A DNA stretch of 64,000 nucleotides from Sacculina carcini (taxonomy: Eukaryota > Arthropoda > Thecostraca > Sacculinidae), in contig OU696572.1 of assembly GCA_916048095.2 (NCBI GenBank), positions 7,467,454 to 7,531,453 on the forward strand, written 5' to 3'. The notes beneath the pieces are model-generated. The model ran no database searches. It was not told where the DNA came from and worked only from the letters and a program-made list of their open reading frames with translations. Shown piece after piece: positions 1-33,801 of the stretch. The position numbers and the translations under genes are program-made. How positions within the stretch are numbered: the stretch's first letter is position 1; every line of letters starts with the position of its first letter.

Positions 1-207
1 TATTGTCCAGTACACGTCACAGGCAGCGTACATCAATACTACCCGAACACAACTACCACATGTCAATGTCACACCACTAGCACACGCGCATACACACATT
101 CAGTCAGCACATACACACAGTCAGTCAGCACACACACACAGTTAGTGTAGCTGGGTCATAATCGCAGGAGCGCACTCCGTAACGCGTAGGGGAGCTAACT
201 CCCAACA
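1..207 (-). repeat. 3' LTR of RT-less element 1 (partial)
   Basis: This stretch matches 2623-2829 closely, with a few substitutions. Read on the minus strand it begins TGTTGGGAG at 207 and runs out of the window, so about 54 bp of the 261-bp LTR are missing. It contains short CA-rich, CAGTCAGT-like repeats. Confidence 0.9.
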
Positions 208-215
208 CCTCCCCC
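208..215 (-). promoter_or_regulatory. Polypurine tract of RT-less element 1
   Basis: On the minus strand the bases GGGGGAGG abut the 3' LTR. They lie 8 bases after the integrase stop codon (224-226), the expected place for the plus-strand primer. Confidence 0.75.
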
Positions 216-223
216 ATCAGAAC

Positions 224-1369
224 TCATATCTCCTCAATGAGTCTGGCTGGTCGGCGGCGTGTTCTCGCTGATCTTCTGAGGGCCGGCTCATCAGGAATTA
301 CCTGATCAGTAACGTCCGACTGGTCTCGTTTCGGAGAACTACCTCTCTCGGGTGATGCAGTCTTGCTATCGGCAGACGAAGCTGGCTCAGTGCCCAGGTG
401 TCCATTTTGCTGAGGCGGTTTTGCGTGAGCGAACCGTCGTCTGATGAAGCGTCTGTTGCGACATAATACTCTGCCGCTCGTCATTCGAATGAGGTATTTC
501 CGATTTGGATTTACCGCAACAATAACCCCGTACCGAGACCATTGCTTTGTAACGGGGTCTTGAACAGCAATTTGGTTGCCAATTGACAGTCCATGTAGAT
601 CACGCGATGTCTGATTGTAACGCCGAATCGTCGGAGATGGTGTGCTATCGGCCACGTCAGCGATGGTTTGCCACTTCTGGCTGAAGGCTCGTCGATGTGC
701 CGGGAGGCTGTCTTGTATTGGTCGTCCAAATAATACTTGAGCAGGAGAAAGTCCATTTGCTCCTGGTGTATTGCGATATTGCAATATAGCGCGCGTCCAC
801 TGCTCTCGATCCAAAGTTTTGCCGCGTCGGCACCAACACTTTACAATGATTTTCTTTAGGCTTTTCACACCAGCTTCCGCCCTCCCATTCGATTGAGGAT
901 AGTTGGGCGACGAATATCTCAGCTCCACATCCCAGCGTCGCAGAAAATCACGGAAGACGTTTGATGTGAATTGTGGCCCACCGTCTGAATACCACACATC
1001 TGGTACTCCGGCGAAACAAAACATGTCCTGCAGTATAGAAATCAATCGTCGAGTACTGCTATCGGTGCCCAGCTCTCCAATAGTTGGCCAACCAGAGAAG
1101 TGATCAACCACCACCAAAACGTGTTTCCCACCGTATTCCGCCAAGTCCGCTGACACGACTTGGAAAGGTCTTTCGGGAAGTGCGAATGTGCGAAGTGCGG
1201 TGATTTTTTTCAGCACTTTGGCATCAACATCGCTTGCTGGATGTGAGACCATCGCCTTTGAAGGTTCGCTAGCGACGGGATGTGCCTTCACAGTACCACT
1301 AGCGTCGATCCCGCACACTGTTTGTCTTCGATACTGTTCATGGAGGAAATGAAGAGCACGCGAGGTGCG
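224..1369 (-). pseudogene. pol: Integrase domain of RT-less element 1
   Basis: This is the C-terminal third of the polyprotein and codes a retroviral-type integrase core that would insert the cDNA in the nucleus. The catalytic triad is visible: the first Asp in VVSADLAEYGG, the second in YSDGGPQFTS, and the Glu in QSNGRAEAGVKSLK. A gypsy-type C-terminal region follows and the protein ends in an Arg-rich tail (RRSARTRRRPARLIEEI). It is in the same frame as the protease, separated by one TGA at 1370-1372. No HHCC zinc-binding domain or RNase H precedes it, so the deletion joint lies just upstream. Its close relative is the integrase at 22200-23176. Confidence 0.85.
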
Positions 1370-2041
1370 TCATGATAGAATGAGTCCTTGAACTCCAGGC
1401 AGCACATGAAAGACTTCTCGTGCGTTGTGTCGCCCGCAAGAGACGTTTCCTAAAAATGTTCCCAGAGTCTCCACTGCTGATTGATCGGCCAATTTCGGAC
1501 GATTATGAGCCTCAGCTGGAGTTAAATCAGCTGATGTCATGCTCAGTCGATGCAGTATATCGAGTCCAGCTACTGAAATATCAGCTCCGGAATCCGGGAG
1601 TGCCGATACTTTGATGGTCTTGTCGGTTTGTAACGTCACTGTCACCCGTGGTGCATGTTCAGCCGTCGTGCTGGCTATGATGCTCGTGACTTGCATCTGT
1701 GATACACTTTGCGATTGTGTCCTTAAACGCTGGCGACACACTTTCTGAAAATGACCTTTTTTCTTGCAAAAATTGCATGTGGCCTGTCGAGCGGGACTCT
1801 GAGTCATATCAAGATGCCACCTACCGCCACACCACGAACAAGTTTTATGGTGTGGAGTAGCCGAACCCGCTTTGCTGAATCGCTTGTATTTTATTTGAGC
1901 CACTTGGTGTCCAAGAATAGTCGATGCGTCGCGACTAGCGGCTTCCTGTGCTCTGAAAATTTCTATAGCATTTTGCAGAGAAAGATTCGGGACAGCACAC
2001 AGCTTCTGTACCGTAGAGGCGTCTTGTAGCCCCATTACAAT
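1370..2041 (-). pseudogene. pol: Gag knuckle and aspartic protease of RT-less element 1
   Basis: The segment starts just after an in-frame TGA in gag. It carries a nucleocapsid-type CCHC knuckle (CNFCKKKGHFQKVC) and then a retropepsin core with the active-site motif LPDSGADISVAG, where DSG replaces the commoner DTG. The protease would cut the gag-PR-IN polyprotein in the virus-like particle. Where RT would normally start, the frame meets a TGA and then runs directly into integrase. Upstream gag, protease and integrase are all in one frame, so the RT loss kept the frame open. Confidence 0.8.
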
Positions 2042-2569
2042 TCAGTCACGAATAAGTGATTCACGACAGCTGTTGCAAAACTTGCAACGCGTCGCCAAGT
2101 CTTTCAATGCTGTGCAAAAATCGTCGAAGCATTCTCCTTCTGCTTGCCTTCTGGCGTTGAAGTTGCGCCGTTCGATGACCTCATTGGTCTGCCCAACGAT
2201 GTATGCCTCCAGGCCGGCTATAATGGAGTTAACGTCATCAAATGCTGCATGTGGTAAGTCGAGGTTCTCCATGACCTTGATGGTGTCGTCTGAGAGACAA
2301 TATCTCAGTGCAGCCAACTGTATGGTCTTCGGTGTCGCTGTCAGGCCTGTTAACAATGCAAAATCGTCCCATCGCCGTCTCCAGGCTCGAAACGAGTGCT
2401 CTCTGTCCACTGAAATTTCTAATCTGTGTGGCTGGGTCGCTTTTGCCAACCACGAAAACGGCTCACCTTGTCGAGGGACCGGCACTGGCGGTTCATGCTG
2501 AGGCAATGCTTGATCAACAACGGAAAGCTCGTCCTTGAACTTCGTAGTTGATCCTGTCGGCTGCGCCAT
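2042..2569 (-). pseudogene. gag: Gag (capsid) segment of RT-less element 1
   Basis: The capsid-like part of gag is about 175 codons. It has the Trp/Arg-rich FRAWRRRWDDFALL region and the QAEGECFDDFCTALKDLA segment typical of Ty3-like gag, then a Cys-rich CKFCNSCRESLIRD stretch with a close match in element 2 (CNFCEVCKDNRLRD). The in-frame TGA at 2042-2044 replaces what is probably an Arg codon. The first ATG is at 2567-2569: its A is the last base of the LTR and its TG is the start of the primer site. A longer open frame extends upstream into the LTR but has no clear start. Confidence 0.8.
2558..2568 (-). promoter_or_regulatory. Primer-binding site of RT-less element 1
   Basis: Directly after the 5' LTR the minus strand reads TGGCGCAGCCG. 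The same 11 bases follow the 5' LTR of RT-less element 2 (20619-20629), so both families probably use the same tRNA primer. Confidence 0.75.
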
Positions 2570-18656: not shown

Positions 18657-18824
18657 ATAGCTACTGATTGGTGCCATGACTCAGGATCTTTAATTGTGTT
18701 TATCTTCTCGGCATAGTCGAAACTCCGTCACTTCCACCGGTGGCTCAAAATTGTGAGGTGAGTGGTATCTTAATTTTCCTTAAGCCTTGCCTTTATCCAG
18801 AAGCATAATTAAGGTAAAGTAAAA

Positions 18825-19794: not shown

Positions 19795-20425
19795 AGAAAA
19801 CCGCTATTGAAACTGGTCAGTATGTGGTTCAGACTTCTAAACCCAGTGAACATTTGGTTGGTAATATTAATATAAATAATAATACACCAATGTGTTATGC
19901 AAATATAGGAGGCAAGCGAATTTACATATTGATTGATACTGGGTGTGACGTAACAATAATATCAAAAGAAATTGTGATGAAATTAAATCAACTGCATAAA
20001 ATAATTCTCGACGATGCCGTACGCTTAACTAGTATTACTGGAACAAGATTAAAAAACGCTGGAACTATTAAATTACCCATCTGTCTTGCTAAATTTAATA
20101 CTGAATATGATTTTAGAGTGGTAGAGAACTTGAGGTATGATTGCATTCTAGGATCAGATTTCTTCCGCCAATTTAATGTACGACTGGACTTTGAAACATA
20201 CACGTTAAAAATACTAGGTAGTACAATACCGTTAGTGTCAAAGTCGGCTCTAAATGCACCAAATAAGCACTTGATAAGACTAAAAAATTCTGTAAAAATT
20301 GATCCTAGGACTTGTACAACTATATTTGACGCATATATCGAAAATTGGGATAATAGGTGTAATGAAATTGTGATAACACCGGATCATAAGTTATATCCGT
20401 TCAATATGGAGCCATTGCTACATGT
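19749..20425 (+). pseudogene. pol: Protease part of errantivirus-1 pol, split by a nested element
   Basis: The aspartic protease shows the active-site motif ILIDTGCDVTII and the second strand DCILGSDFFRQFNVRLDF. It would process gag and pol in the particle. The ORF is cut at 20425 by the RT-less element 2 and continues in the same frame at 23393. The insert plus one TSD copy is 2967 bases, a multiple of three. The last residues before the break are therefore native to errantivirus pol; the apparent continuation to 20450 is LTR sequence. Confidence 0.85.
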
Positions 20426-20618
20426 TGTATGGTGGTTGGCAACTCTGTGATTTGCCACGATGTAGATGTTGGTGGCGAGGGGGAGACGAGAGGGGAGTGT
20501 GTTTTCGGATGTTTCGGGGTTGGTGACTAATTGTTTGTTCTGGTTATTTTGATGTTTCGTGTGGAAGATAAACACCGTATTGTCATCCGTCTTTATTATA
20601 AAAGTGTATGACAACACA
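20426..20618 (+). repeat. 5' LTR of RT-less element 2
   Basis: The 193-bp LTR is TGTATGGTGG...GACAACACA, base-for-base the same as 23195-23387 by eye. A TTTATTATAAAA stretch near its 3' end (about 20592-20603) could be a TATA box. Confidence 0.93.
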
Positions 20619-20629
20619 TGGCGCAGCCG
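20619..20629 (+). promoter_or_regulatory. Primer-binding site of RT-less element 2
   Basis: TGGCGCAGCCG directly abuts the 5' LTR and is identical to the primer site of RT-less element 1. Confidence 0.85.
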
Positions 20630-20693
20630 CTTGTGAAGTAACGTTGTATATTTGTTGTTGTTTGTGGGGATTATTTCTGCTTGTTTGGATTGA

Positions 20694-21026
20694 GTGATTA
20701 TTATGGAACAACAAGTAGAAAAACTGTCTCAATTGGTGTCACAATTGATTGAAAATTCTGTCCAGCGAGAAGCCACTGTAGACAGACTCATGCACGCAGT
20801 GTCACAACAAACTGGTCCAAACCAAAACGCGGACGTTTACAGAGAGCAAAGCCGCCCTGTAAAAGTGCCATCGAACCCTGTTCCGGTGCTACAGTCTGAC
20901 GCGTCTTTAATGGATTTTGACACATGGCGATACAAATTCAACGGTCAAATCCGGTTGGCGTGTCCGGTTGGCGTGGCGATCAACTGCCTGTCAAAGAACA
21001 GCAGGCCGTGCTTCACGCCGCCGTAG
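20694..21026 (+). CDS. gag: N-terminal gag ORF of RT-less element 2
   Basis: This 110-codon ORF starts at 20694 (a second ATG is at 20703) and contains a helical N-terminus (EQQVEKLSQLVSQLIEN) and FDTWRYKFNGQIRL, the start of the Ty3-like capsid region. The homologous region continues in the -1 frame from about 20960, in the long ORF. The overlap contains a near-perfect tandem copy of a 13-base unit (CCGGTTGGCGTGT). The split could be a recent frameshift or a genuine frameshift arrangement. A mid-capsid position argues for a lesion. Confidence 0.6.
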   Translation: MIIMEQQVEKLSQLVSQLIENSVQREATVDRLMHAVSQQTGPNQNADVYREQSRPVKVPSNPVPVLQSDASLMDFDTWRYKFNGQIRLACPVGVAINCLSKNSRPCFTPP

Positions 21027-23176
21027 ATGAAGATTGGAGCCGTATTTTGCGTTTCAGCTTGAATATCACTGACGAAACATGTCTCAGTGAGTGTGTCGAC
21101 CAAATGGAATCACATCTCAGGTCACAGAGAAACGTGGTGCTCGATCGCCGCGATTTTTACCTCAGAAAACAACAGACAGGGGAAAGTTTTGATAATTTTG
21201 TATGTGCTGCCAGAGAAATTATGTCTTTTTGTAATTTTTGTGAAGTCTGCAAAGACAATAGACTGCGTGACAAAGTCATTATGGGTAGCAATGACTCCCA
21301 GGCATTGCACCGCATGCTGCAAGAAAAACACCCCGATCTTGGCAAAGTTATAGATATATGCCGGTCATCAGAAAACGCATCTGTGAACTCATCTGCTATC
21401 GAGCGTCAAGAAGCACCATGTCGAGCAGTTAAACATGCTGTAAAAAGAGATGTGAGTGCAAGTGACAAGGGTATGACGTCACACACGTGTCAGCGTTGTG
21501 GATATCCGTACGCGGGTAACCATGATTGTCCCGCGATTGGCCGGTCTTGTAACACATGCGGTAAAACCGGACATTTTGCTAGTATGTGTCGGTCGAAACA
21601 AAAACCTGCTGGCAAAGGCCGTAATAAAAATCAACAGGCTCGTGTTGCCAGTGTGAGAAACGACGACCAAACGATACGTCGCATCACCGTGGCGGATATC
21701 AGAAAAGGAGCGACCAAACGAAAGGCGCCCGCGGTGTCGATTTCAGTAGCTGTAGAAGGCAAGAGTGCAGTGGATGTAAAGTGGATCGCTGATACCGGCG
21801 CGGAAGTGAGCGTCATCAACGCGGCTACTGCTCGGAAGGTTGGCCTGGATTGTCATAAGTTGACTGCGTGTCAGGACCGCCTCTGTTCTGCCAATGGTAG
21901 CCGTCTGAATTGCCTCGGCACATGCAGTGCTGTACTCACACTGGGAGATGCTTCATGTCGCACCAAACTTTATGTGGTGCCAGCCGCTACGGACTCACTG
22001 CTTTCGTGGTGCGATGCTGTGGATCTGGACATCATACACAAAACGTTTCCACAGCAGCTCACAATGGCACGTGTTTCTGTGAAACATGAGAACATGGCCG
22101 ATTCCATCAGTGTTCCTGCGAGTACTGAAAGTTCCTGCGGTCGCGAAGACGCAGAAAATCGCAGCGAACGACCGCCCTGGACATCAAATATGCGAAACGA
22201 CGATAAGCCGGCTAGAATTTTTGAAAGCGTGTCGTCGGACTATTTCCAGTATGGTGGCCGGACGTACCTAGTGTATGTGGACAGACTCTCCAATTGGCCT
22301 CTCGTTGTGGAGTGCCCCCGAAGTGACGCCACCTCCCGGCACCTGATTAGAACTCTGCGACAGCTTTTTGCTTTGTATGGCGTCCCAAATCGCCTGCGAA
22401 GCGATGGGGGACCACAGTTTATGGCGCGCAGAACAAAGATGTTTTTGCAGCGATGGCATGTCGAACATTCAGTCAGCAGTCCGGAGTTCCCGCAAAGTAA
22501 CGGACATGCAGAGTCTGCCGTGAAGCGCATCAAACGCCTGCTCCAGAAAGCGTCGACCAACGGAAATCTGGACGATGATGCCGTGACAGAAGGTCTTCTG
22601 GAGATGCGGAATTCTCGCGGTCGAGATGGACGGTCGCCGGCCCAAATCGTCTTCGGGCACCCGATGCGATCGTCTGTTCCGGCGCACTCGTCATCATACG
22701 CCCCCGAGTGGCAGCGCAAAGCTGATGTCTACGACGCAGTGGGGGAGGAGGAGCAGCGTAAGGCGGAGACGAGGTACAACGTGACTGCGCGTACTCTGTC
22801 ACGTCTTCCTGTAGGTAGTTCGGTGTACATCCAAGACCAGACGTCTCAACGTTGGGACCGACGAGGCGTGATTGTCGGCTCCAACGGACACCGTAGCTAC
22901 ACTCTTCGCATGCCGAGTGGACGGATCACGCGAAGGAATCGTCGACACTTGCTGTTGGACATGAGAGCCGATGCAAGTGAGTTAGAGCGTGGTGACCAAC
23001 AGCGACCGCAGCCAAACAGTCCTCCACCAGTGTTCGATAACAGTGAACCAGCAAGTGACTCACATCAGCAAGCCGATCGATGTCGTCGGACTGAAGAGGA
23101 CGGTTGCCCGCCGTTGCGGCGCTCGACACGACGACGGCGCGCACCGACTCGTTTACGGGATTATGTGCTTAATTAG
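20924..23176 (+). CDS. Gag-protease-integrase polyprotein of RT-less element 2
   Basis: The open frame is 750 codons. Approximate order: capsid part to residue 150 (QQTGESFDNFVCAAREIM); a Cys/His region and knuckle near 187-225 (CQRCGYPYAGNHDC, CNTCGKTGHFASMC); protease near 285-365 with active site WIADTGAEVSVI; integrase core near 430-560 with Asp in VSSDYFQYGG, Asp in RSDGGPQF and Glu in SNGHAESAVKRI. Then comes a gypsy-type C-terminal domain and an Arg-rich tail RRSTRRRRAPTRL. Protease passes to integrase within about 65 residues with no RT, RNase H or HHCC domain. All catalytic residues of protease and integrase are present. Codons are more GC-rich than in the surrounding errantivirus. 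Confidence 0.88.
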   Translation: MAIQIQRSNPVGVSGWRGDQLPVKEQQAVLHAAVDEDWSRILRFSLNITDETCLSECVDQMESHLRSQRNVVLDRRDFYLRKQQTGESFDNFVCAAREIMSFCNFCEVCKDNRLRDKVIMGSNDSQALHRMLQEKHPDLGKVIDICRSSENASVNSSAIERQEAPCRAVKHAVKRDVSASDKGMTSHTCQRCGYPYAGNHDCPAIGRSCNTCGKTGHFASMCRSKQKPAGKGRNKNQQARVASVRNDDQTIRRITVADIRKGATKRKAPAVSISVAVEGKSAVDVKWIADTGAEVSVINAATARKVGLDCHKLTACQDRLCSANGSRLNCLGTCSAVLTLGDASCRTKLYVVPAATDSLLSWCDAVDLDIIHKTFPQQLTMARVSVKHENMADSISVPASTESSCGREDAENRSERPPWTSNMRNDDKPARIFESVSSDYFQYGGRTYLVYVDRLSNWPLVVECPRSDATSRHLIRTLRQLFALYGVPNRLRSDGGPQFMARRTKMFLQRWHVEHSVSSPEFPQSNGHAESAVKRIKRLLQKASTNGNLDDDAVTEGLLEMRNSRGRDGRSPAQIVFGHPMRSSVPAHSSSYAPEWQRKADVYDAVGEEEQRKAETRYNVTARTLSRLPVGSSVYIQDQTSQRWDRRGVIVGSNGHRSYTLRMPSGRITRRNRRHLLLDMRADASELERGDQQRPQPNSPPPVFDNSEPASDSHQQADRCRRTEEDGCPPLRRSTRRRRAPTRLRDYVLN

Positions 23177-23180
23177 TTAG

Positions 23181-23194
23181 AAACTAGGGGGAGG
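23181..23194 (+). promoter_or_regulatory. Polypurine tract of RT-less element 2
   Basis: AAACTAGGGGGAGG lies between the polyprotein stop and the 3' LTR. Confidence 0.85.
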
Positions 23195-23387
23195 TGTATG
23201 GTGGTTGGCAACTCTGTGATTTGCCACGATGTAGATGTTGGTGGCGAGGGGGAGACGAGAGGGGAGTGTGTTTTCGGATGTTTCGGGGTTGGTGACTAAT
23301 TGTTTGTTCTGGTTATTTTGATGTTTCGTGTGGAAGATAAACACCGTATTGTCATCCGTCTTTATTATAAAAGTGTATGACAACACA
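23195..23387 (+). repeat. 3' LTR of RT-less element 2
   Basis: Identical to 20426-20618, followed by the TSD CATGT at 23388-23392. The ORF drawn across this LTR into the downstream RT gives a false N-terminus to the errantivirus RT. Confidence 0.93.
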
Positions 23388-23392
23388 CATGT

Positions 23393-24257
23393 GAAGCAAA
23401 CAGTGACAAGTATCACGAATAATTGTCTGTCCATTTCCTTTGTTAATTATTCCACTCGCCGACTGAGCTTACCAGCTAATCAAGTAATTGGTTATGGAGA
23501 ACCAACGCAAAATTTCAATGTAGCAGAGGTGAAGCAGGGCAGGGAATGTAAAACAGATGAAAGACAGGAAGTAAATATGAATCATTTGACTGCTACACAG
23601 AAAGAGAAAATTGTTCAATTGTTAGAACAAAATATAGATATATTTGCTAAATCAAACATGGATTTGGGAAAAACTGACCTAATGGAAATTAAAATAGAGA
23701 CGGAAGATAACGCCGAACCCATCAAACAACAACCGTACCGATTACCGTATAGCCAGCGACAATTTGTAGAGGAACATTTGAACGAATTATTGAAGGCTAA
23801 TCTAATTAAGCCATCCCAATCACCCTGGGCATCACCAATTGTATTAGTGTCAAAGAAAGATGAATCACTCAGATTATGTGTTGATTATAGGAAACTGAAC
23901 AGGGTCACAAAGAAAAGTGGGTATCCATTGCCCAGGGTCGATGATATATTAGCATCTCTCGGAGGATCAAAGTATTTCACTTCACTAGATTTAAAATCAG
24001 GATATTGGCAGATTCCCGTACACAAGGATTCAATTCCAAAGACAGCATTTACTTGTTTCTTAGGGAGTTTTGAGTGGAATTATATGCCGTTTGGACTTGC
24101 TTGCGCACCATCGGTGTTTTCAGAACTGATGAATACTGTACTACACGGAATACAGTATAAATTTTGTATTGCTTATATGGACGATATAATAATATTCTCA
24201 AGATCATTCGAGGAACATTTGGAGCACTTGAAAATTGTATTTGAACGGCCAGGTTGA
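23393..24257 (+). pseudogene. pol: Reverse transcriptase of errantivirus-1 pol (first part)
   Basis: Pol resumes after the nested element. Motifs in order: DIFAKSNMDLGKTDL, the SQSPWASPIVLVSKKDESL fingers, RLCVDYRKLNRVT, FTSLDLKSGYWQIPV (catalytic Asp), MPFGLACAPSVF and CIAYMDDIIIFS (YMDD). At 24235-24300 the phrase GAACGGCCAGGTTG-like is repeated three times in tandem, which breaks the frame in the RT thumb; the downstream protein continues in the next frame. RT copies the genomic RNA in the particle. Confidence 0.85.
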
Positions 24258-27012
24258 AAGGTTTGAACGGCCAGGTTGGCTCAAAACGGCCAGGTTGAAA
24301 TTAAAGCAGTCAAAGTGTGAATTTTTACGCCCGGAAATTAATTATTTAGGACACGTAGTGTCACCCAGTGGTATTAAACCGGATCCTAACAAAGTTATAG
24401 CACTGAATAAGTTACAAACTCCAAGAACAGTAAAAGACATTCGTTCATTTATCGGATTAGCCAGTTATTACAGAAGATTCATATCAAAATTTGCGGAAAT
24501 TAGCAAACCATTAACATCCTTAACACGGAAACATGCACGCTTTGAATGGTCAATTGAGTGTCAAAAAGCGTTTGACCAATTGAAAATAGCTCTCGCAGAA
24601 TCGCCAATACTAAATTACCCAGACATGAACAAGCCATTCTAATTATACACGGACGCTTCAGATGTTGGAATAGGCAGTGCATTAGTACAAGAAACAGATA
24701 ATGGACAAGAAAGGGTGATTCAGTTTCTGTCACATCAGCTATCTAACTCACAGATGAACTGGCCGATAATCGAGAAAGAGGCTTATACCATTGTGTACTC
24801 TTGTCAGAAATTTCGACCATATTTGTATGGAGCTAAATTCACCGTATATTGTGATCATAAGCCGTTGCAACATCTTTTTACATCTGAAATGAGGAACCCA
24901 CGCATACAACGATGGGCTATCATGCTGGACGAATATAAATGTAATGTCGAATATATTCCAGGTTCAAAGAATATTGTTGCAGACGCTCTATCAAGATTGC
25001 CGACAGAAGAAACTGAAGTAAACCTCATTGATTCTGATACTTACGCAGGGGCACAATTGAGTAGTACAATAGAGGCATGCCCAGAAAATAAAGATATTGA
25101 GGATAACTGTGAAGAAATTATCAGAAGCTCGAACAATCTTATAAATTTACAAAGAGAAGACAAATATTTTGCAGCCATAATTACAATACTTAATGATAAA
25201 AGTAAAGAATGCAACTTACGACCAACAAAAGTGAAATCATTTGTAATGCATTATGAATTATTATATCACATATCAGACCCCGACCATTGTAACAAACATC
25301 CCGGCATGCAGTTGTGCGTTCCATCACTTTTCAGACCATTATTAATGAAGGAATCCCATGACGGATACTTAGGTGGACACTTTGGAATTGATAAAACGTA
25401 TACAAAAATACGATCACGATATTTCTGGCCCGACATGTATAAGGATGTAGTTCAGTATGTCACAAAGTGCGTTCAATGTAATATGAGAAAACTCCACAAA
25501 CAAAAACCACCTATGCAAGACATGCAAATCCCTCATTATCCCTTTGAGATTATTTAAATTGATTGTTGCGGTCCATTCCCTTTGAGTTATGCTGAAAATA
25601 AGTTCATAATAAATATTGTTGATCATTTTTCCGGATTCCCCGAATCCTTCCCAGTACCAGACAAGTCTGCAGATCAAATATGTAGAATTTTAATTGAAGA
25701 TATTATTCCCCGTCATTCCTGTCCCCGTGTCAGTGATAATGGATCAGAATTTTGCAATGAGGTGATCAATCAATTGAATATGTTCTGCAATATCAAGCAT
25801 ATCCGAACATCTGTATACCACCCTCAAGCCAATGCTAAAGTAGAGCGTTACCATCGAGTTCAGAATGATTTTCTAGCAAAAACAGTTGATGTATCTCAAC
25901 GTGATTGGGACAAGAAAATTCCATCACTATTGGCTGCATATCGCACAGCAGAACATGAAACTACTCGTTTGTCACCATTTTTTGTATTATATGGCAGAGA
26001 ACCAGTTATGCCAATGGAAACCATATTAACACCAAAATATCGTTATTATGGAGAGGACTATTTATCCACCATGTTGGTAAACATGAATCAAACATTTCAT
26101 CACGTTCGACACCACTTGGTGTTAGGTCATGAAAAGAATCGCCAATATTATGATAAAAAAACAAAGCCAATCAATTTAAAAACAGGAGACCCTGTTTACT
26201 TCAGAAATCCTTCCAATGCTTCGACTAATAAATTATCGCTCCGATGGGATCCTAATTATCGAATAATACAGTTTATAAGTCCCGTTTCATGTTTGATTAA
26301 AAATCAAGTGAACGGAGAAACACATAAAACACATGTAGAGAACCTACGACTTAGGAATGAGGCTTCAGTATGGAAACAATATAATACTAAACCTGAACAT
26401 TTGCATAAAAAGTATCGGGAATTTCAGCGGTCATATATACCAATAAGTACACGAATCACCAGACAAAATGCTCCAAATGAAACAGCCTTACAACCTACAA
26501 AAGAAGATTCAGTAGACAATATGCCACTAGCGGAGAGACTAAGATTAGCACGCGAACAGAGGGACATTGTTGAAGACACGGAGGTTGCGCCGCCAACAAT
26601 CACAAACGCTAAACGCTCATCAGAGATTAATGAAACGATTAATAAGAAAAAGAGAGTTGAATGGAAAAGAAAAACAAGTTCGTCTGAAGATGAGGAACAA
26701 AACAAGCGAATGAGAATGACTAATGAATTAGAGGTTGGTATAAATACAGTGGATTTCATACAAGAAAATGAGAGTAAATGCGGTGTTATAAAATACGAAA
26801 CGGATATAGAGGAAGGTTCCATAGAATTCACTGATGGATGTATGAATGCATTAAATATTGAGCAACAGGGTAATGTACGAGGCACACATGGTGTCAAGAG
26901 AACAGGCTTGTGTCAACCGTCTAACGGTGAAAATACACAAGATATTAGGTTAAAAGCATTTAACATGCTACTGAATCAACAAGCGGAGTTATTGAAGCAA
27001 TTGCTTTGTTGA
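24258..27012 (+). pseudogene. pol: RT thumb, RNase H and integrase of errantivirus-1 pol
   Basis: One frame carries the rest of pol with two TAA stops (24640-24642 and 25555-25557). RT connection: YLGHVVSPSGIKPD and IRSFIGLASYYRRFI. RNase H: LYTDASDVGIG, YTIVYSCQKFRPYL and DALSRLP. Integrase: HHCC domain (HDGYLGGHFGIDKT, CVQCNMRK), then the core with Asp in IDCCGPF, Asp in VSDNGSEFCN and Glu in ANAKVERYHR. The C-terminal extension of about 200 residues is charged, with NKKKRVEWKRK, a possible nuclear localisation signal. Without the TAAs the frame is complete. Confidence 0.85.
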
Positions 27013-32275: not shown

Positions 32276-32893
32276 TTAACGAGACTTAATCAGCCTGATG
32301 CTGCCGTGAATCCCAGGATGGCTCAGATTGTGCAATTGCATGAACACAGGATGCCTACATTTTTCAGGCAAATATGGCTTTGGGTGTGGCGTAGAAGTGT
32401 CACACAACAGTGGTACATCTCCGGACATTTTGAAAGCACTAAGTGCTGTGCCAGCAGTTTGTGTTTCTGCATCGTTTGCTTGTGCACGAGCAATGGCTGG
32501 CAGGTCATAGACGTCCAGCCTGACAGCATTCACACTGCGTGACAGACAGTCTGCGATCGCGTTATCCGCTCGACGAATGTGTTGTACATCCGACACATAT
32601 TCAGTTATATACGACCAGTGCCTCTGCTGACGGTCAGATTTGGCCAAATGTGGACTGGTGTAGGCCGAAACCAGCGGCTTGTGGTCAGTCAGCAGAGTCA
32701 CCGATCGACCTTCTAGGAAGTGCCGAAAGTGTACTACAGCGTAATATGCCGCCAGTAACTCGTGATCATATACAGAGTATTTACGCTGGGTGGCAGATAA
32801 TTTTTTTGAAAACAATGATATCGGTTGTGCGACACTCTCAACCATTTGATGCAGCGCAGCGCCGACGGCAACAGAAGAACTGTCGGTTACCAG
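32276..32893 (-). pseudogene. pol: RNase H and integrase zinc-finger start of gypsy element 1
   Basis: Read on the minus strand: QPISLFSKKLSATQRKYSVY, DHELLAAYYAVVHFRHFLEG, VTLLTDHKPLVSAYT and AIADCLSRS. These are the usual Ty3-type RNase H and connection motifs. Then comes HNLSHPGIHGSIRLIKSR, the HH part of the integrase zinc finger. A frameshift links it to the RT segment near 32845-32894. Confidence 0.8.
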
Positions 32894-33801
32894 CTACAGA
32901 TGCTGGCAACTTGGACTTGGATGAGGCAGTACACATGCATCCATCAGCGATTGTTTAGCGGCCTCAAACGCTACAGTTTCTGCTTCATTAAGCTCAATGT
33001 GCTTGGCGTTGGGCTGCAGTCTAGTGCGCTCAGATAGAGGATGAATAATATCCGCGAACTTCGGCACAAGGCGAAAGGTAAAAATTGCAAATCCAAGAAA
33101 TCGACGAAGAGAAGCTGAATCACATGGTTGTGGAAAATCGCGAATAGCGGAAGGCTTATCTTCAGGTGGCTGTACTCCATCAGCTGTGATCTTGTGCCCG
33201 AGAAAGTCAACGCTTTTCTGGAAAAAGGCACACTTCTCTATTGATAGACGCACACCATATTTATCTAATATGTCAAACACGGCTGCTAAGTCACGTGTGT
33301 GCTGCTCCTCGTCGGCCGAAAACACCAGTATATCATCGAGGTAGACAAATGTACAGCGAAGGTGAGACAAAATGGTGTTCATCATGCGTTGAAACGTTGC
33401 TTCAGCATTTCGAAGACCCATGGGCATAAATGCGTACTCATAGAGACAAAGGGAGTGACAACTGCAGTTTTGGCGATGTCAGACTCACTCATGGGAACCT
33501 GATGGTACGCTTGTAGAAGGTCCACTTTAGAAAACACACGCATACCGTGCAGATGCGCCGACAGATCCTGGACATGTGGTAGCGGGTATCTGTCGGGCAC
33601 TGTCTCCACGTTCAGCGCGATAATCACCTGTGATGCGCCATTCACCAGGTCTTTTCTTAGCCACCATGTGCAGTGGAGAAGCCCACGGTGAATTGGAACG
33701 GCGGACAATGCCGGACTGCAGCATGGATTCAAACGCATCTGTGGCGGCTTTTTCCTTGTCAGATGATAGACGGCGTGGGCGGGCGAACACGGGCGCCGCA
33801 C
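32894..33801 (-). pseudogene. pol: Reverse transcriptase of gypsy element 1
   Basis: RT spans two minus-strand frames. 33382-33801 has DRYPLPHVQDLSAHLHG and FSKVDLLQAYHQVPM (catalytic Asp). 32894-33427 has MPMGLRNAEATFQRMM, FVYLDDILVFS (YLDD) and FLGHKITADGVQP. The frameshift is near 33400-33430. RT priming and copying would occur in the particle. Relics of the fingers are upstream in 33527-34186. Confidence 0.85.

Follow-up and report, generated by a model that had tools for sequence, protein, structure and literature searches.

Can a long terminal repeat (LTR) retrotransposon that has lost its reverse transcriptase (RT) still multiply as a form of its own? The question is raised by an element at positions 20426-23387 of a 64,000-nucleotide stretch of the Sacculina carcini genome (NCBI GenBank assembly GCA_916048095.2, contig OU696572.1, positions 7,467,454 to 7,531,453 of the forward strand; the whole stretch is hereafter the window), in which the protease (PR) is fused directly to the integrase (IN). 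We found the same joint at several other loci, together with full-length siblings that carry RT in its place, and we found that the sequences flanking the joint are mixed between the two forms. From the genome sequence alone, we propose that the window element is very probably an internally deleted, non-autonomous form that is mobilized by its full-length siblings, with template switching between co-packaged RNAs.

A deleted form and its full-length siblings

In the assembly (264 Mb in 43 contigs, the window lying on contig C3), the exact joint pattern occurs at 8 places, versus none for the reversed control. These eight short loci are spread over seven contigs: C3 (the window), C35, C19, C26, C29, and C1, with two on C9. 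Six of them keep both LTRs and are flanked by six different perfect target site duplications (TSDs), and these six copies are therefore separate integrations. The short copy on C29 is truncated, its right-arm match stopping soon after the joint, and the one on C1 is rearranged: it has no whole 5′ LTR and is adjoined by an inverted RT fragment of the family. With eight loci carrying the joint, a single-copy accident is ruled out.

Four full-length copies (4873-4874 bp) carry RT at the place of the joint. Their LTRs are 94-99% identical to those of the window element, and the primer site TGGCGCAGCCG is the same in all four. Relative to these siblings, the joint is a deletion of 1923 bp, or 641 codons, in frame and with one base of microhomology. 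When one full-length copy (L067) was examined in pieces, these matched, in order, CCHC, Asp_protease_2, RVT_1, RT_RNaseH, Integrase_H2C2, and rve, and no piece matched a Pfam gag capsid family. The missing block covers everything that matches RT, RNase H, and H2C2 in L067; the H2C2 match ends 7 residues short of the end of its 160-residue piece, which is the joint itself. The comparison indicates that a single in-frame 1923-bp deletion produced the short form, which then multiplied.

A perfect 5-bp TSD flanks all 13 copies with two LTRs (6 short, 4 full-length, and 3 with other deletions). Out of 193 positions, the LTR pairs differ at 0, 0, 2, 3, 6, and 10 in the short copies, at 3, 3, 8, and 6 in the full-length copies, and at 2, 5, and 2 (the last over 136 sites) in the copies with other deletions. 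Both copies with identical LTRs are thus of the short form. Given the repeated insertions and these LTR differences, the short form is a lineage that kept inserting throughout the period in which the full-length form did, and its insertions are the most recent ones.

An earlier note on this DNA, made from its letters, had described a complete, very young element that codes for gag, PR, and IN. Much of that description stands. The identical 193-bp LTRs, the TSD CATGT, the primer site, and the purine tract are all present (Table 1), and the frame of about 750 codons is real: it runs from 20921 to 23176 (751 codons) and has Pfam matches to an aspartic protease and to the rve integrase core, with a CCHC knuckle at 20.2 bits, slightly under the Pfam curated cut-off of 20.8. 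The absence of RT, RNase H, and the N-terminal zinc (HHCC) domain is also borne out, as this frame has no Pfam match to RT, RNase H, or H2C2 and the full-length siblings place the missing block at 22190-22192. The integrase is itself incomplete, retaining its catalytic core and C-terminal part without H2C2. The note's call for further copies and for an autonomous relative was answered by the eight loci with the same PR-IN joint and by the four siblings with the same LTRs and primer site. The youth of the copy holds only in relative terms, in that it is one of 2 among the 13 two-LTR copies with no LTR difference. Completeness does not hold: Gag starts at 20703 in a frame other than that of the 751 codons, because an 11-bp insertion shifts the gag frame and leaves the long frame without the start of Gag. 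None of the 13 other copies that cover this site has the insertion, which is private to the window copy; in C1, a distinct 10-bp insertion lies at almost the same place in gag.

Mosaic flanks around the joint

Consistent differences between short and full-length copies are confined to about 100 bp around the joint, and elsewhere variants are common to both. In trees from which the neighborhood of the joint was left out, a single clade of short copies is rejected both for the left arm (7 short versus 5 full copies; approximately unbiased test, p-AU = 0.0021) and for the right arm (6 short versus 8 other copies; p-AU = 0.0007). The left-arm tree omits the C1 short copy and three partial copies; the right-arm tree omits the C1 short copy, L074, L080, and the C29 copy, which is without a right arm.

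Close to the joint, the pattern is different. At left position 1740, 14 bp from the joint, the short state is found in 7 of 7 short copies and in none of the 7 other copies with a letter there, and at left position 1662 one state is found in 6 of 8 short copies and in no other copy. Among 115 informative biallelic sites, the 13 that lie no more than 100 bp from the joint have a mean r2 of 0.364 between site state and the short or full label, versus 0.061 for the 102 farther away, a contrast that is significant when sites are permuted (P = 0.00001). Because neighboring sites are linked, positions were also rotated as a second test, and none of 2628 rotations reached the observed value (rotations within 200 bp of the joint were excluded). 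Of 49 intervals of 200 bp, the five with the highest linkage surround the joint. Every combination of state and label, four in all, is seen at 14 of 29 sites between 100 and 500 bp from the joint and at 58 of 73 sites farther away. With no single short clade and with linkage highest around the joint, the same deletion sits in changing full-length backgrounds.

We propose the following history. One in-frame deletion in a full-length ancestor, recorded in the common joint and the substitutions adjoining it, removed RT, RNase H, and HHCC. The short RNA retains the LTR ends, the primer site, the purine tract, and all of gag, and since it keeps the signals of its siblings, it could be packaged, copied, and integrated by their Gag-Pol. 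Repeated co-packaging with full-length RNA would then lead to template switching, which is known to produce such mosaics in retroelements and has been proposed for wheat elements (PMC11302176). Template switching would keep the flanks mixed with the full-length form, and only the neighborhood of the joint would stay distinct. Short copies may also contribute Gag, PR, and the IN core to mixed particles, although nothing in the proposal requires it. The earlier suggestion that RT is borrowed by co-packaging with a related Ty3 element agrees with the recombination pattern, which is as expected; the likely partner, however, is the set of full-length members of the same family and not another Ty3 family.

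Several observations weigh against this history. Inside the 100-bp zone around the joint, 3 of 13 informative sites show all four combinations, and the tests depend on few copies (8 short, 4 full-length, and partial ones), with near-joint sites that are linked and not independent. The short copy at 4.48 Mb on C9 (L065) has diverged well beyond what its LTR pair would predict, having 75 private coding changes and 3 LTR differences versus about 12 expected (P = 0.003, uncorrected for the ten copies tested). The C26 copy deviates in the opposite direction, with 10 LTR differences versus 4.1 expected (P = 0.009). The discrepancy in L065 would follow from LTR conversion or from a long history that was not sampled; a simple history does not account for it.

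Coding state, selection, and other explanations

If the short form were instead a semi-autonomous partner, kept under selection for its Gag, PR, and IN core, which would be used in cis or by full-length siblings, its copies should bear marks of that use. The deletion joint is in frame, and no coding-arm indel is identical between any two short copies, so that frame breaks look later than the spread of the form. Over all copies, shared substitutions are poorer in amino acid changes than private ones (53 amino-acid-changing and 40 silent versus 380 and 132; P = 0.001), as are those shared by short copies only when compared with private ones in short copies (13 and 11 versus 205 and 68; P = 0.03), although recombination confounds these comparisons. 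The private ratio in short copies is 3.0, and about 2.5 is expected without constraint.

These signs of constraint are, however, uneven. By arm, the contrast between shared and private changes is significant for gag-PR (P = 0.0003) and not for IN (P = 0.36), and of the 7 changes near the joint (within about 120 bp) that are shared by short copies alone, 6 replace an amino acid. The frame is unbroken in only 1 of the 7 short loci listed (the C29 copy being outside the listing), as in 1 of the 4 full-length copies, and both copies with identical LTRs have broken frames. Moreover, constrained sequence can be inherited from full-length parents by recombination, and because short copies draw sequence from those parents, their substitution pattern is no proof of selection on the short form. 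The pattern indicates constraint during the activity of the family, not on the short form itself. We therefore regard a semi-autonomous partner as possible but rather unlikely.

The integrase bears on the same alternative. One report describes human immunodeficiency virus (HIV) integrase as acting as a multimer, such that individually inactive mutants can complement each other, and describes HHCC mutations as harmful to the virus in vivo (PMC2615046). With its HHCC domain lost, the short form probably relies on its siblings to provide RT, RNase H, and whole integrase; its own proteins would at most supplement theirs. That it provides a working integrase is only a prediction, and a doubtful one. 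The earlier note had supposed that the element brings its own integrase; this finds little footing when HHCC is gone, the identical-LTR copies are frame-broken, selection on the IN arm is undetectable, and the gag-PR constraint is possibly inherited. The selection analysis that the note had called for is accordingly split, significant for gag-PR and not for IN, and confounded by recombination. A broader conjecture is that, in one Ty3-type family of crustaceans, elements have repeatedly lost RT while keeping gag, PR, and the IN core, and that selection maintains this mode of existence. Such helper-dependent elements would feed structural protein and integrase core into mixed particles, their joint staying distinct and the remaining sequence being renewed from the helper. 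We consider this conjecture speculative and unlikely.

Gene conversion between chromosomal copies, and not co-packaging, might also have mixed the flanks, which adds to the points against our proposal: it would yield the same mosaic, and one assembly cannot separate the two. In two mosaic copies the LTRs are identical, so that conversion would have had little time to act after insertion, and the eight short loci are scattered over seven contigs; neither point is decisive, and on balance we hold conversion to be quite unlikely as the source of the mosaic. Recurrence of the same deletion in different full-length parents, with no short lineage, would fit the lack of a single short clade in either arm. 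The joint has, however, only 1 nt of microhomology, and position 1740 separates all seven short from all seven other copies exactly where linkage peaks; this short-specific state beside the joint leads us to reject repeated identical deletion as highly improbable. Nothing that we found suggests that the block is missing through an error of assembly or annotation, and the chance of this is negligible: the joint recurs at eight loci spread across seven contigs, and six of these loci have two LTRs and TSDs that differ from one another.

Known systems, relatives, and surroundings

It is already known that LTR elements can be mobilized by siblings while retaining gag only, gag and PR, no Gag, or nothing. 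The earlier note knew of no named family with the gag-PR-IN plan. Likewise, in titles and abstract openings from an open-access library, we recognized no description of gag-PR-IN without RT as a multiplying form (subscription papers and Repbase, which lay outside the search, may record it), although close analogues exist. As described, mouse IAP type I-delta-1 elements resemble the window element in that an internal deletion of about 1.9 kb creates a fused frame (PMC7060167, PMC2674570), and they show that a form with an internal deletion can come to surpass the others in activity (PMC7060167). They differ in that they are vertebrate endogenous retroviruses, their deletion affects gag and pol, and their fusion protein reportedly promotes its own mobility; the window element is of the Ty3/Gypsy type, keeps gag and PR, and has lost RT, RNase H, and HHCC.

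Several other partnerships are reported in plants. RLG_Sabrina_SA, a "semi-autonomous" wheat Gypsy element, also has a gag-PR frame without RT and is thought to use the enzymes of another element, but it is described as lacking integrase, being present in thousands of copies, and having a proposed partner from another family (PMC9744471). RLG_Quinta of einkorn wheat, which is mobilized by RLG_Cereba, shares LTR ends and the primer site with its partner and keeps gag, and template switching is proposed for the pair; it encodes just gag and an unknown domain, and the pair is old and divergent, not a recent derivative by a single deletion (PMC11302176). Pol-less Athila families likewise contain coding copies under selection that recombine with pol-bearing elements, but these are plant elements that lost pol and kept Gag and Env (PMC2410132). 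The RNA of BARE2 of barley is packaged in the particles of a sibling, as we propose here, but BARE2 cannot make Gag (PMC3735527), whereas our form keeps Gag and loses RT. In grasses, defective pararetroviruses are kept similar to their partners by region-specific recombination; these are not LTR elements of this kind but pararetroviruses, and what is shared is noncoding regulatory sequence (PMC5491270). The cereal partnerships of deleted and complete LTR elements are described from families with thousands of copies. The system reported here consists of about 20 loci, which include a dated series of copies of both forms and a single deletion, and in which linkage clearly declines with distance from the joint. 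So small a natural system records how recombination may let a deleted retroelement keep pace with its helper, and it offers a way to test whether gag-PR-IN without RT is a functioning arrangement or mere debris.

The closest named relatives of the element in protein databases are crustacean (Palaemon, Petrolisthes, Amphibalanus), and full-length relatives include the Amphibalanus protein P0048. One database match is named K02A2.6-like. The HSP70 of the genome is 90% identical, over the whole query, to that of the barnacle Pollicipes pollicipes, which ranks highest in identity among the named entries in the 120 matches listed of 7957; this fits a genome that is probably from a barnacle-like crustacean. 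A COX1 search of the assembly gave 0 matches. We compared 89 database proteins piecewise, considering only lengths of 0.55-1.75 times the query (the first protein listing covered polyproteins up to 1314 residues). In 18 of the 89, gag and IN are present and RT or RNase H is incomplete. The clear case among these, P0002 (973 aa; 49% identity over 43% of the query), is known from its protein record alone and, like the window element, has gag, PR, and the IN core but no RT, RNase H, or Pfam-recognizable H2C2. Its alignment to the full-length P0047 stops at residue 560 and picks up again at residue 1170. Because its joints differ from that of the window element, P0002 appears to have lost the RT block independently. 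A search for P0002 in viral contigs gave no match. In nine Petrolisthes cinctipes proteins (P0003-P0011), the first half of RT is joined, at the same place in all nine, to the sequence that follows RNase H, which may reflect a deletion or an annotated intron; being gene models seen as proteins, they were not counted as deletions and are only suggestive of further RT loss.

The copies place the window element in a low-copy Ty3/Gypsy-type family, which may belong to the Mag clade. Locus counts come from similarity searches and are lower bounds. With the IN arm and joint as the query, there are at least 17 loci at ≥94% identity and at least 22 at 68-69% (40 of 59 candidates scored); the remaining row is a 91-base piece belonging to one of the 17. 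With gag as the query, there are at least 17 loci at ≥89% and at least 2 at 65-67% (19 of 19 candidates scored), and with RT at least 10 (10 of 10 scored). Twenty stretches were compared, comprising all 17 IN-arm loci and three others with an LTR, and one stretch was extended. Besides the short form, four copies have other internal deletions (Table 1); TSDs were checked in three of the four, and that of L073 is still perfect although its 5′ LTR end and primer site are deleted. The related, more numerous family at 68-69% has RNase H, H2C2, and IN matches in 13 of 13 loci read (of 22) and RT in 12 of the 13 within the stretches covered, and no RT-less loss like that of the window element was seen in those 13. 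Three copies of the related family (L027-L029; C30, 2.699-2.709 Mb) are spaced at about 4.74 kb, an arrangement like that of tandemly arrayed LTR elements. At about element position 1227, L066 (C26) has a 94-bp insertion that resembles two extra copies of a 47-bp stretch, and L074 is without 47 bp there.

Table 1. Features of the window element (window positions) and other deleted or partial copies of its family (element coordinates)
Feature	Position	Strand	Basis
5′ TSD CATGT	20421..20425	+	sequence
5′ LTR, 193 bp, no difference from 3′ LTR	20426..20618	+	alignment
Primer binding site TGGCGCAGCCG, immediately after 5′ LTR	20619..20629	+	sequence
gag, CCHC knuckle at about 21545-21592; frame disrupted by 11-bp insertion	20703..21676	+	frames, profile match, sibling comparison
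Aspartic protease (DTG), same frame as gag end	21677..22189	+	profile match
Deletion joint; 1923 bp (641 codons; RT, RNase H, H2C2) missing versus full-length siblings; microhomology 1 nt	22190..22192	+	sibling comparison
Integrase catalytic core (rve) and C-terminal part, without N-terminal zinc domain, to stop codon	22193..23176	+	profile match
Polypurine tract AGGGGGAGG, immediately before 3′ LTR	23186..23194	+	sequence
3′ LTR, 193 bp	23195..23387	+	alignment
3′ TSD CATGT	23388..23392	+	sequence
L071 (one locus): whole gag and start of PR deleted	element 205-1361		
L072 (one locus): gag end to RT start deleted	element 964-2050		
L073 (one locus): 5′ LTR end and most of gag deleted	element 137-1070		
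L079 (one locus): deletion from PR into 3′ LTR	from element 1463		
L074, L075: old or truncated copies			
L080: complex copy			
L077: LTR; 300 bp on each side without internal sequence			

LARD and TRIM elements are LTR elements without coding capacity between their LTRs; the window element has a long coding frame there. A Ginger-type DNA transposon is ruled out by the LTRs, primer site, and purine tract. The primer site presumably resembles the 3′ end of animal tRNA-Ser. A search for a matching tRNA gene returned 401 pattern places versus 293 for the reversed control, and three small stretches that were read held no tRNA. On C1, between 1.72 and 2.44 Mb (0.7 Mb), numerous repeats of a short sequence, frequently spaced by 10-15 kb, suggest a large tandem array; the one piece read there contained no tRNA.

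The window element sits inside another Ty3-type element, which it splits between PR and RT: the gag of the host element starts at 18813 and its PR extends to about 20425, and its RT, RNase H, and H2C2 matches lie beyond the insertion at 23688-25479. Further Ty3-type remnants lie on the minus strand of the window at 467-2392 and 32534-33585, with integrase and gag-like matches and with RT-RNase H matches, respectively.

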